Below, piece after piece: positions 14,402 to 21,975 of a stretch of DNA of 29,669 nt (its first letter is position 1; each line of letters starts with the position of its first letter). The notes below the pieces were generated by a model. The model saw only the letters and a program-made list of their open reading frames with translations, was not told the origin of the DNA and made no database searches. The stretch is from a virus. A program made the position numbers and the translations under genes. Location: the IMG/VR virus record IMGVR_UViG_3300027749_000026, positions 1 to 29,669 of that record; one strand, given 5' to 3'.

Positions 14402-14929
14402 TTATTTTATTAGTTCAAAATCTTCGTTTAAATAATCCTCAAAATCCTCTCCAATTGATTCTTTAAGTCTTTCCTTGCAGTTCTTTAATGTGTTAAATAT
14501 AGAAGTTAGACTGATGTCTGTTTCTTCTGCTATCTCTCGCATTGATAAGTTTGATTCTCTGTATAGATTAAATAGTTTAATGTCGTACCAGTGCCATTTA
14601 TCTACTTCTTCCTGTATCTTTTGTTCAATTATGTTAAATGCTTCGTGTTTTTCTATGTTGCAATCATCATAACTTAACTTCACACAATCGTCAATAGATA
14701 CGCTTTCAATCTTTCTAGCTCTTAAATGATCAACATAAACACTACGCAGGATTAACCACATTATATTCTTATTGACTGAGTCAGTTACTATCTTATCTAT
14801 ATGATTTAAACGTATAATTTTAATATATGTTTCTTGTACGATGTCATCAGCTAAGAAGTATTCGCCAAAACTATTGACGATTCTCACCCAATCTTTGTGC
14901 TGATTTGCTAGTATGGTTAATTTGTCCAT
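14402..14929 (-). CDS. RNA polymerase sigma-factor-like protein
   Basis: This 175-residue protein has the two-domain layout of small sigma-70/ECF factors. Residues about 10-75 resemble region 2 (LADDIVQETYIKIIR; WLILRSVYVDHLRARK). Residues about 112-158 resemble region 4 with a helix-turn-helix (LFNLYRESNLSMREIAEETDI, then SLTSIFNTLKNCKERLKE). Such factors direct RNA polymerase to particular promoters. It is the first gene after a terminator and precedes the packaging and structural genes, so a late-gene switch is likely. A -7-type box lies at 14944-14951. It could instead be an anti-terminator or a non-functional relic, but both regions look intact. The C-terminal tail is acidic. Confidence 0.72.
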   Translation of the reverse strand: MDKLTILANQHKDWVRIVNSFGEYFLADDIVQETYIKIIRLNHIDKIVTDSVNKNIMWLILRSVYVDHLRARKIESVSIDDCVKLSYDDCNIEKHEAFNIIEQKIQEEVDKWHWYDIKLFNLYRESNLSMREIAEETDISLTSIFNTLKNCKERLKESIGEDFEDYLNEDFELIK

Positions 14930-16602: not shown

Positions 16603-17204
16603 TTGTCTTTGGTTTTAAATTCGTCTTTTAGTCGTTGGTATTCACTAAGTCTTTTAATCCATTTTAAAAAATCTTCTTCTGAGTTATTGTTTTTTGCTAT
16701 GTTACACATCTTACAACAAGATACAATATTATCATTTTCATATCCTCTTGAATTATCAACTCTATCAATTCCATTATAAGTTACATTATAATAAGACTTC
16801 CAAAATAAATTTGATGGTTCTATTCCGCAATAATGACAATTAGATTTCATAATGTTTACTGCATAATCAAAGTCAATATTAAAATTTAATTTTCTTGATC
16901 TTGCGTTTTGCTTATATCTTGAAAAAACACTTCTATATCCTCCATCTTGTTTTGCAATTTTATGTCGTGATTTTATAGAATTTTCAGCTGATTTTGTAGG
17001 TGTTAAACATCCGCAAGATTTCTTTTTATCACAAGTTAATGCTCCAGTATTTGCTTCAGTCATATTACCACAATCGCATTTACATGACCACATTCTTTTT
17101 TTATGGTATTTACTTTTATCTCCGTACACTCTACTTGGTAATTTTTCAACTACAACAAGCATATTGTAACGCATACCAATTAAATCAAGTTGTTTTGCTC
17201 CCAT
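16599..17204 (-). CDS. HNH endonuclease with N-terminal zinc-binding module
   Basis: The 201-residue protein has a first zinc-type module at about 40-66 (CKCDCGN ... CDKKKSCGC), then an HNH domain with CHYCG (Cys123, Cys126), IDRVDNSRGYENDNIVSCC (about 146-164) and CKMC closing the second Cys pair. This layout is known from free-standing homing-type endonucleases of phages. It probably cuts DNA and may spread itself into related genomes. Its AT content looks higher than that of its neighbours, and it interrupts a run of tiny early genes, both fitting a later arrival. It overlaps the previous gene by 20 bases and is coupled to the next. A packaging role is less likely here because terminase is far away. 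Confidence 0.78.
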   Translation of the reverse strand: MGAKQLDLIGMRYNMLVVVEKLPSRVYGDKSKYHKKRMWSCKCDCGNMTEANTGALTCDKKKSCGCLTPTKSAENSIKSRHKIAKQDGGYRSVFSRYKQNARSRKLNFNIDFDYAVNIMKSNCHYCGIEPSNLFWKSYYNVTYNGIDRVDNSRGYENDNIVSCCKMCNIAKNNNSEEDFLKWIKRLSEYQRLKDEFKTKDK

Positions 17205-20797: not shown

Positions 20798-21436
20798 TTA
20801 TTTATTTAAGATTGCTAATATACTATCACTTTCTGTAACAATGGTTCTATCTGCGTATTTATCTAACGTCTCAGCTCTACTAAAGAACTCAGGTGTGCAA
20901 TACTGGTAGTTGTTTTCTTTGTGGTATTGATTCTCTTTGCAGTTTTTGATAGCATTTATAATATCCTCTTTTTTATATCCGTCTTTTAGACGTGCTTTGT
21001 ATGAACGTTGTATCTTATCAGAGACTACTTTAAAGTTTCTACCAAAAGATTTATTAACAAATTCAAGCAACGCTTGATAGTCTATATTATCTATTACATT
21101 AACATTATCATTAACATTAACATTATCAGCTATTTTTGCTATGCTACTAATGCGTTTGCTATCATTTGCTATCTCTTGCCATCGTTTGTTAGCTCCTGCT
21201 ATTCCTGCTTCACTTCTTTTCACTCGCTTTTCTTCAAATAATTTAAGGTCACGTTTCAACTGTTGCTTGATTGGTTCAAATGCAATCTCAACAATTAAGT
21301 CATCACTGGAAGGATTCTCATCATTGACGTAACTGTAAATATGTTTGATTAATTTACCTGCAATTTCATCAGGTAGTTTGTTCCATAAGTCCTTTTGATC
21401 AACGTAAAGGATAAACGATTTTTTGTCTTTTGCCAT
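20798..21436 (-). CDS. Replication initiation protein, DUF6291-type N-terminus and Phg_2220-like C-terminus
   Basis: I chose ATG 21436 (212 residues, MAKDKKSFILYVDQKDLWNKL) because an upstream start at 21466 lies within the terminator. The N-terminal 70 residues are of a Bacteroidetes phage type that I associate with DUF6291. A linker (about 95-118) holds DNVNVNDNVNVIDNI. The C-terminal 95 residues (ALLEFVNKSFGRNFKVVSDK ... EFFSRAETLDKYAD) resemble the Phg_2220_C or DnaD-like domain of phage replication proteins. It probably binds the origin and brings in the helicase encoded next, two bases on. The hexamer repeat coding for the linker (21094-21128) could be origin iterons, as in lambda O. 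A leader RNA with a terminator precedes the gene. Confidence 0.68.
   Translation of the reverse strand: MAKDKKSFILYVDQKDLWNKLPDEIAGKLIKHIYSYVNDENPSSDDLIVEIAFEPIKQQLKRDLKLFEEKRVKRSEAGIAGANKRWQEIANDSKRISSIAKIADNVNVNDNVNVIDNIDYQALLEFVNKSFGRNFKVVSDKIQRSYKARLKDGYKKEDIINAIKNCKENQYHKENNYQYCTPEFFSRAETLDKYADRTIVTESDSILAILNK
21094..21128. repeat. Hexamer repeats inside the replication gene (possible iterons)
   Basis: On the plus strand six near-tandem units occur: TTACA, then TTAACA, TTATCA, TTAACA, TTAACA and TTATCA. The 12-mer TTAACATTATCA appears twice (21099-21110 and 21117-21128). They encode an Asn/Val/Asp linker between two domains, where protein sequence is free to vary. AT-rich direct repeats in a replication gene are a known phage origin layout. 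Confidence 0.7.
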
Positions 21437-21454: not shown

Positions 21455-21508
21455 TAAAAAAGCCACTTTAAATCCTGAGCCTTCGACCTCTCATTCATTA
21501 AAATGGCT
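21455..21508 (-). terminator. Rho-independent terminator with a large structured loop, upstream of the replication gene
   Basis: The coding-strand stem is 11 bp (21508-21498 with 21471-21461, one G-U pair) and is followed by a T run. Its loop is not empty: a 4-bp helix TGAG/CTCA closes a 10-base loop AGGTCGAAGG. It lies between the DnaA-IV-like gene and the start of the replication gene, so it must be read through, or the replication gene needs separate expression. Confidence 0.8.
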
Positions 21509-21546
21509 AAATAATACCGTAGGATTTATAATGTCGAAGGAATCCT
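21455..21546 (-). ncRNA. Candidate small structured RNA or attenuating leader with kissing hairpins
   Basis: A -7 box TATCTTTG at 21550-21557 predicts a start near 21543-21546, and the terminator ends at 21455, so a transcript of about 90 nt is expected. Hairpin 1 pairs AGGATT (21546-21541) with AATCCT (21526-21521) and shows CCTTCGAC (21540-21533) in its loop. Hairpin 2 is the terminator, whose apical loop shows GTCGAAGG (21487-21480). The two 8-base loop segments are perfectly complementary. A second AGGATTTA (21476-21469) can also pair with TAAATCCT (21528-21521), which would form a pseudoknot with the loop pairing. Such competing pairings suggest a switch deciding whether the replication gene is transcribed. 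No protein is encoded. I know of no described family; the structure is inferred by eye. Confidence 0.5.
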
Positions 21547-21549
21547 GTA

Positions 21550-21557
21550 CAAAGATA
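21550..21557 (-). promoter_or_regulatory. Candidate promoter -7 box for the structured RNA
   Basis: The coding strand reads TATCTTTG, an exact TAnnTTTG match and identical to the box at 18794-18801. It lies just before the last codons of the DnaA-IV-like gene end (stop 21565). There is no good TTG -33; a TTT occurs at about the right distance. It would start RNA right at the first hairpin arm. Confidence 0.45.
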
Positions 21558-21564
21558 ACGAAAC

Positions 21565-21975
21565 TTATTCTAATAAAGTTGCTTCATTTTCTAAATTTTT
21601 ATATCTGCCTTCTGCAATCCATCTTTTTACACGTAACAACTTGTAAAGACTTGTGCATCCGTTTACATCGTCAATAATATTTCTAGGCTGTAAAATGTAC
21701 TTTGAATCAACTAGGAAAACTTGATATTCTCTAATGATGCCCATGTATTCATCTTTATTATATTGCATGAGATTTTTATGCGTTTTAATATTGTGAATTA
21801 CTGAGGCATGATGCTGATTGAAGTAAGCACCTATTTCGTTAAACGTTAGTTCCTCTTTTCGTAGTTGATTCATCAGAAAGCACTTCTTATAAATGTTTTC
21901 TTTTCGTCTATTTCGTTTATTCAGTTCGTCTCTTTCTATTAAGTACGTTACTCTTTCTATTAAATCGTTTTTCAT
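21565..21975 (-). CDS. DnaA domain IV-like DNA-binding protein
   Basis: In this 136-residue protein the segment LTFNEIGAYFNQHHASVIHNIKTH (43-66) strongly resembles the DnaA C-terminal signature helix-turn-helix (domain IV), which binds origin sequences in double-stranded DNA. There is no ATPase domain, so it is a stand-alone binding domain. The rest is helical and charged. It lies upstream of the structured RNA and replication gene and may regulate or mark the origin. I recognise this type from Bacteroidetes phages and conjugative elements. Its exact target is unknown; the hexamer repeats at 21094 and the control region at 23172-23545 are candidates. Confidence 0.65.
   Translation of the reverse strand: MKNDLIERVTYLIERDELNKRNRRKENIYKKCFLMNQLRKEELTFNEIGAYFNQHHASVIHNIKTHKNLMQYNKDEYMGIIREYQVFLVDSKYILQPRNIIDDVNGCTSLYKLLRVKRWIAEGRYKNLENEATLLE

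Follow-up and report, generated by a model that had tools for sequence, protein, structure and literature searches.

The window, which is the whole linear virus record IMGVR_UViG_3300027749_000026 of 29,669 bases, carries on its minus strand (positions 21557 to 21455), between a gene for a small DnaA-C-like protein and a gene of the DUF6291 family, an element that is, as judged from sequence comparison, a genuine structured RNA, widespread among flavobacterial phages and not described before, of the kissing-loop attenuator or phage antisense kind. It consists of two hairpins, the second of which is a predicted intrinsic terminator, and their loops carry the exactly complementary 8-mers CCTTCGAC and GTCGAAGG (Table 1). 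The case for the structure is very strong, and the regulatory mechanism proposed below is plausible, with a probability of about one half. All the parts that an earlier note had described from the letters of the window were found on the minus strand by sequence, at the coordinates that it gave, and its central idea that two kissing hairpins form a structured RNA ahead of a replication gene was borne out by the DUF6291/O-like gene downstream and by covariation in relatives. At a control point of these phages stands an RNA family that had not been described before, for which about 29 natural loop specificities are available and of which cultured phages carry close relatives.

The minimum-free-energy (MFE) fold of the window element was found to consist of exactly the two hairpins described, the outer stem of the terminator comprising 11 base pairs, including one G-U pair. 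Its folding energy is unremarkable (z −1.26), and the argument for the structure is built on comparison across relatives, the energy of a single folded sequence not being significant. The terminator of the window was missed by a consensus terminator scanner, the loop limit of which was 8 nt. The start codon lies about 20 nt past the six T residues, and its ATG about 25 nt past the terminator stem; the order of promoter box, element and ATG is that found in the relatives.

A protein search with the downstream gene yielded 80 viral loci, and the same kind of element was found between box and start codon in most of those whose match covers the gene start. Pattern scans of viral contigs yielded more than 200 further loci, and the relatives total well over 100, in viral contigs and in cultured virulent phages. 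Class 1, which includes the window, is characterized by the conserved linker GGTATTATT, with 13–15 nt between the aligned stems (alignment A1), and class 2 by tight hairpins with loops of 6–7 bases and the motif AGTA-CTGC. A third form was found in cultured phages, namely in 46 records of the Moomin Flavobacterium phages (strains LMO6/LMO9) and in Tenacibaculum phage Gundel_1, which also has a class-1-like copy (model E value of 4e-8). Weak and still more divergent forms (L038:4669-4750, L040:4669-4750, L055 and L297; loops GTGCAG, GTTACGG and GTTGCGG) suggest more classes than three. The conserved unpaired bases are ACATTATA, GGTATTATT and GGA, some of which flank the kissing helix. No match to the element was found in Rfam 15 (4227 families), and a pattern scan of 84,980 bacterial and archaeal genomes gave only matches scattered over unrelated phyla, which look like chance. 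A covariance search of 299 Flavobacterium genomes did not find the element, only two plain terminator-like hairpins, and matches in Lak phages were rejected as weak (blastn E value of 3, and a model match without the two hairpins). In morran9-1 (gp042, L425:694-837) and snusmum9-1 (gp041, L426:662-757), small "hypothetical proteins" have been annotated across the RNA element, and they probably do not correspond to real proteins.

Covariation was evaluated in alignment A1, which holds 59 class-1 sequences and four helices. Paired cells amounted to 95.7% of the total, with double-sided changes in 23 of the 27 pairs, and the covariation score was reached by none of 500 shuffles; sliding the partner destroyed the signal. 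Hairpin 1 was paired in 94% of cells, with changes on both sides in all 5 counted pairs, and the outer stem of the terminator (helix 3) in 99%, with double-sided changes in 8 of 10 pairs. Similarly, all 4 pairs of the apical stem (helix 4) and 6 of the 8 pairs of the kissing helix presented changes on both sides. The kissing helix is strictly Watson-Crick, with a single G-U in A1, whereas the terminator stem has many. The loop-loop columns of the class-2 alignment (A2) were 100% paired, with 3–4 pair types at the two variable positions. In alignment A6, which was made with the model of class 2, the loops are out of register, and the kissing helix was therefore read from A2 and from a direct count.

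The detector used to gather A1 and A2 accepts only complementary loops, a bias that does not affect the protein-fetched loci. To remove it, loop pairing was counted again on the hits of a covariance model from which the loop-loop pairs had been left out. In the recount, all 44 hits in the protein-fetched loci, with 19 distinct loop pairs, had a perfect loop-loop match of at least 6 nt, as did 93 of 95 further hits; one of the two exceptions is a truncated record, the other the locus L107. By this count, the loop-loop pairing is kept in essentially all relatives while its sequence varies, and this recurrence with compensatory changes excludes chance for the pairing in the window. The compensatory loop changes that the earlier note had asked for among relatives do therefore exist, with pairing kept through about 29 loop sequences (predicted duplex energies of −6.0 to −14.7 kcal/mol). 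Among isolates, the loops of lillamy (GTGAGACG/CGTCTCAC), morran (GTGAGAAG/CTTCTCAC) and mumin (GTGGAACG/CGTTCCAC) differ by compensatory changes, and the two elements of Gundel_1 have GCTCTCAC/GTGAGAGC and GTAGGATTC/GAATCCTAC. The exceptional L107:3374-3466 (IMGVR_UViG_3300032282_000444) is a natural recombinant that combines loop 1 (CCTTCGAC) from one type with loop 2 (GTCGGATG) from a second, so that the loop pairing has one mismatch and one G-U; the importance of exact pairing could be tested on it directly.

A competing pairing of AGGATTTA with TAAATCCT, which had been proposed to give a pseudoknot, did not hold up. The complementarity is present in the window (21476-21469 and 21528-21521), but the corresponding segments of the relatives pair no better than shuffles (69.7% versus 69.2%), and the alternative pairing is considered incidental. 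The match arises because hairpin 1 of the window happens to use AGGATT, and the conserved terminator arm contains GGATTT.

Table 1. Features of the RNA element and its two neighbouring genes in the window.
Feature	Positions	Strand	Sequence or remarks
Upstream gene	21565..21975	−	Small protein, DnaA-C-like helix-turn-helix
−7-type promoter box	21550..21557	−	TATCTTTG (TAnnTTTG), by sequence; same box precedes the element in relatives
Hairpin 1	21521..21546	−	AGGATT 21546-21541 with AATCCT 21526-21521; MFE fold
Loop-1 kissing segment	21533..21540	−	CCTTCGAC; exact complement of 21487-21480
Linker	21509..21520	−	ACGGTATTATTT, by sequence; between hairpin 1 and terminator hairpin
Terminator hairpin	21461..21508	−	Outer stem AGCCATTTTAA 21508-21498 with TTAAAGTGGCT 21471-21461
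Terminator apical stem-loop	21476..21493	−	TGAG 21493-21490 with CTCA 21479-21476, 4 pairs; loop AGGTCGAAGG
Loop-2 kissing segment	21480..21487	−	GTCGAAGG; within terminator apical loop
T-run, predicted intrinsic terminator	21456..21461	−	Six T, the first also stem-paired; T-run follows the hairpin in relatives too
Downstream gene	20798..21436	−	ATG at 21436; DUF6291 and phage replication-initiator-like (O-like) C-terminus

The loop-1 sequence was found again 0–6 nt before the start codon in class 2 and in those class-1 elements that carry CTTCGAC, and this third copy covaries with the loops. Its forms include GTTGCAG-ATG, GTCGCAG-A-ATG, AGGCAG-TAAA-ATG, GAGCAG-TTAA-ATG, AAGCAG-AAA-ATG, ATGCAG, GTGCAG and CTTCGAC-AA-ATG. 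The copy stands before the start in 36 elements, against 1.1 expected with permuted seeds, and in class 2 it was present in 38 of 43 elements. It accompanies the element before unrelated genes, HNH endonucleases included, and is therefore part of the element.

Nearly all of the records of about 30 kb have one element per phage; three genomes (L305/G045, L344 and Gundel_1) have two, with different loop sequences within each. Among 81 pairs of loci that are at least 85% identical downstream and at least 75% identical upstream, the loops are not the same in 27; the pairs are not mutually independent. The mean identities in the 27 differing pairs were 72% for the element, 85% upstream and 92% downstream, which indicates exchange of the element as a cassette. 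The genes downstream fall into about 27 crude clusters, comprising replication-like proteins, NUMOD4/HNH-like endonucleases and many small unknown proteins, and the element stays at the operon head whatever gene follows. In Gundel_1 (L409:2990-3834), the gene right behind one element encodes an AntA/AntB antirepressor, and an HNH endonuclease comes next; the second element, with other loops, lies at 16798-16891 (L420). A NUMOD4/HNH homing-endonuclease-like start (WK.IPG....YQVSN) was observed directly behind the element in L084, L086, L087, L104, L124, L291, L295 and L297, and such genes may help the spread or exchange of the cassette.

Several known systems resemble the element in part. In phages P1 and P7, an antirepressor gene is controlled through loop pairing by a small antisense RNA, c4; the Gundel_1 element before AntA/AntB recalls it, but most elements precede replication or unknown genes and none matched an antisense family of Rfam. 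The kissing loops of ColE1 RNA I-RNA II and of other plasmid copy-control systems are formed by partners from opposite strands, and the element shares with these the fully complementary hairpin loops of 6–8 bases near replication functions and the many specificities, although both of its loops lie on one transcript. Its anatomy also matches that of a general intrinsic-terminator attenuator, with a predicted promoter, an RNA structure and a terminator in the leader. The earlier view that the architecture is not a recognizable one proved too strong, the layout matching that of the guanidine-IV and Gd4v riboswitches (PMC9788692, PMC11611296) and the seqA-CI-seqC arrangement of satellite phage P4 (PMC4825925).

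The guanidine-IV riboswitch and its orphan variant Gd4v likewise have two kissing hairpins, the 3' one being the intrinsic terminator directly before the gene (PMC9788692, PMC11611296). Formation of the kissing loop in the guanidine-IV riboswitch hinders completion of the terminator and promotes read-through (PMC11611296), and a short inter-stem linker was proposed to make the two states exclusive (PMC9788692). In these riboswitches, guanidine (or, in the variant, some other ligand) is bound by highly conserved loop nucleotides, whereas those of the element are hypervariable and covarying; the start-codon copy in one class and the location in phage early operons also set the element apart. In P4 immunity, the CI RNA pairs with seqA upstream and seqC downstream, and premature termination stops the replication operon (PMC4825925). 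The element would similarly be an untranslated leader ahead of replication genes in which a segment is complementary to copies upstream and downstream, the downstream copy being found throughout class 2 and in the CTTCGAC part of class 1 but not in the window. It has a predicted terminator and stands before a replication-like gene, and control by premature termination as in P4 may apply to it. Unlike the CI RNA, which is made by processing and acts in the lysogeny of an enterobacterial satellite, the RNA of the element is apparently a primary transcript that ends at its own terminator. Its flavobacterial carriers are not recognizably temperate and look lytic, mumin-type phages having been reported as capable of lytic replication only (PMC7077304), and the resemblance to P4 is one of layout.

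The reading that is preferred here, with even chances of being correct, is that the element is a leader attenuator of the early, usually replication, operon of the phage and a source of a small RNA of about 90 nt, with pairing in cis opposing the terminator and terminated RNA competing in trans. The transcript would begin close to the 5' arm of hairpin 1, and while it is nascent its loop 1 could pair with loop 2, which caps the terminator hairpin. This kissing in cis would hinder completion of the lower stem of the terminator, by analogy with guanidine-IV, and so allow read-through; it is proposed to favour read-through because the guanidine-IV layout is shared and because the class-1 linker of 13–15 nt, by a rough length estimate only, barely spans the stacked hairpins. 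Terminated RNAs of about 90 nt, each carrying both loops, would accumulate and, acting in trans, bind the partner loops of newly made leaders; termination would then win, and the phage would limit its own replication operon as copies accumulate, in a negative feedback. In the class with a third copy, loop 2 would additionally pair with the loop-1 copy at the start codon and block translation. The variable yet matched loops might then act as a code of self and non-self, by which co-infecting phages are kept from silencing each other, or are allowed to; the diversity of the loops and the exchange of cassettes are both in keeping with selection for specificity between phages. The more specific proposal, that lytic phages possess here a one-component, single-strand replication brake, in which the leader is its own antisense RNA, intramolecular pairing means "on" and intermolecular pairing "off", the loop is a fast-diversifying identity code swapped as a cassette, and one class has a second target at the start codon, is put forward tentatively, the chances being somewhat against it. 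The lillamy, morran, mumin and snusmum types share host strain LMO9 and have distinct loops, which makes RNA-based recognition between co-infecting lytic phages directly testable, and the loops of the element offer a ready-made set of orthogonal kissing pairs.

Some observations weigh against the attenuator reading. Kissing involves no base-pair competition with the terminator, and the antagonism of the two rests on the estimate that the linker is too short. The conserved unpaired bases leave room for a ligand or a protein. The third copy before the start codon was looked for in the window and not found, and most class-1 elements are without it. No further copies or targets of the loop sequences were found beyond chance in the surrounding phage DNA, that of the window included, so that any action in trans could fall only on the element itself or outside the genome. 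Finally, the near-absence of G-U from the kissing helix would fit a kissing complex and also repeats at the level of DNA. The unpaired bases that flank the kissing helix and the lack of a loop-sequence target elsewhere in the genome would suit a riboswitch of the guanidine-IV type, in which the kissing complex, stabilized by a small molecule or by a phage or host protein, switches on the replication operon and the loops are free to vary since only pairing matters. The covarying third copy would have no role in such a ligand switch, and Rfam gave no match; this explanation is considered unlikely. A small probability was also assigned to a trans-acting antisense RNA for superinfection exclusion, akin to P4 CI or P1 c4, directed at the leader or the start region of its own phage or of a relative that co-infects the cell, with attenuation in cis as a secondary effect. 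The arrangement in class 2, which resembles seqA-seqB-seqC, the many loop specificities and the rapid exchange of elements between near-identical phages, as for an immunity determinant, and the antirepressor behind the Gundel_1 element all speak for it. Nevertheless, the carriers look lytic (PMC7077304), no integrase was recognized among the window proteins scanned, the element is missing from the 299 Flavobacterium genomes, and the start-codon copy is absent from most class-1 elements.

Two further explanations fare worse. The terminator closely follows the upstream gene, and the element would work as a self-contained unit of promoter, RNA and terminator, as would be expected of an ordinary terminator of the upstream operon whose fold is kept only for stability of a small RNA, the downstream gene being unregulated; this is very improbable, a dedicated promoter box lying between the upstream stop codon and the RNA, the element being kept at operon heads whatever the downstream gene, the linker length being conserved and the start-codon copy covarying. 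The strict Watson-Crick complementarity with almost no G-U, and the three copies around the promoter in class 2, could also reflect operator sites in the DNA, two inverted and one direct, where changes in the sites track changes in a repressor. The segments of 6–9 bases, however, have no symmetry of their own and always lie in the loops of two hairpins with independently covarying stems, and no adjacent repressor travels along because the element is exchanged without its neighbours; operators are accordingly regarded as extremely improbable. A type III toxin-antitoxin system (ToxI-like RNA), which would have tandem pseudoknot repeats in front of the gene for an endoribonuclease toxin, does not fit: the element is not in tandem but single in nearly all phage records, and the gene downstream is DUF6291/replication-like.

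The genes of the phage lie nearly all on the minus strand of the window, where the products recognized include a portal, a terminase, an endolysin, Erf, NinG, helicase/primase-like proteins, exonucleases and a sigma-factor-like protein. The product of the downstream gene matched Pfam PF19808 (DUF6291) and PHROG 428 ("replication initiation protein") with E values of 1e-21 and 2e-10, respectively. A longer downstream open reading frame with a GTG start at 21466 was rejected; it would begin within the terminator, and the relatives start at an ATG after the element. The upstream product matched Pfam PF08299 with an E value of 7e-6, under the curated cut-off of the family, and 7 bases separate the stop codon of its gene from the promoter box. 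Cellulophaga phage phi19:3 also has an annotated "DnaA protein" (L410:623-1018), encoded a few genes upstream of its homologue of the replication gene. The product of 14402-14929 on the minus strand of the window matched a PHROG annotated as RNA polymerase sigma factor (E value of 3e-11), and the phage may thus bring its own sigma factor.
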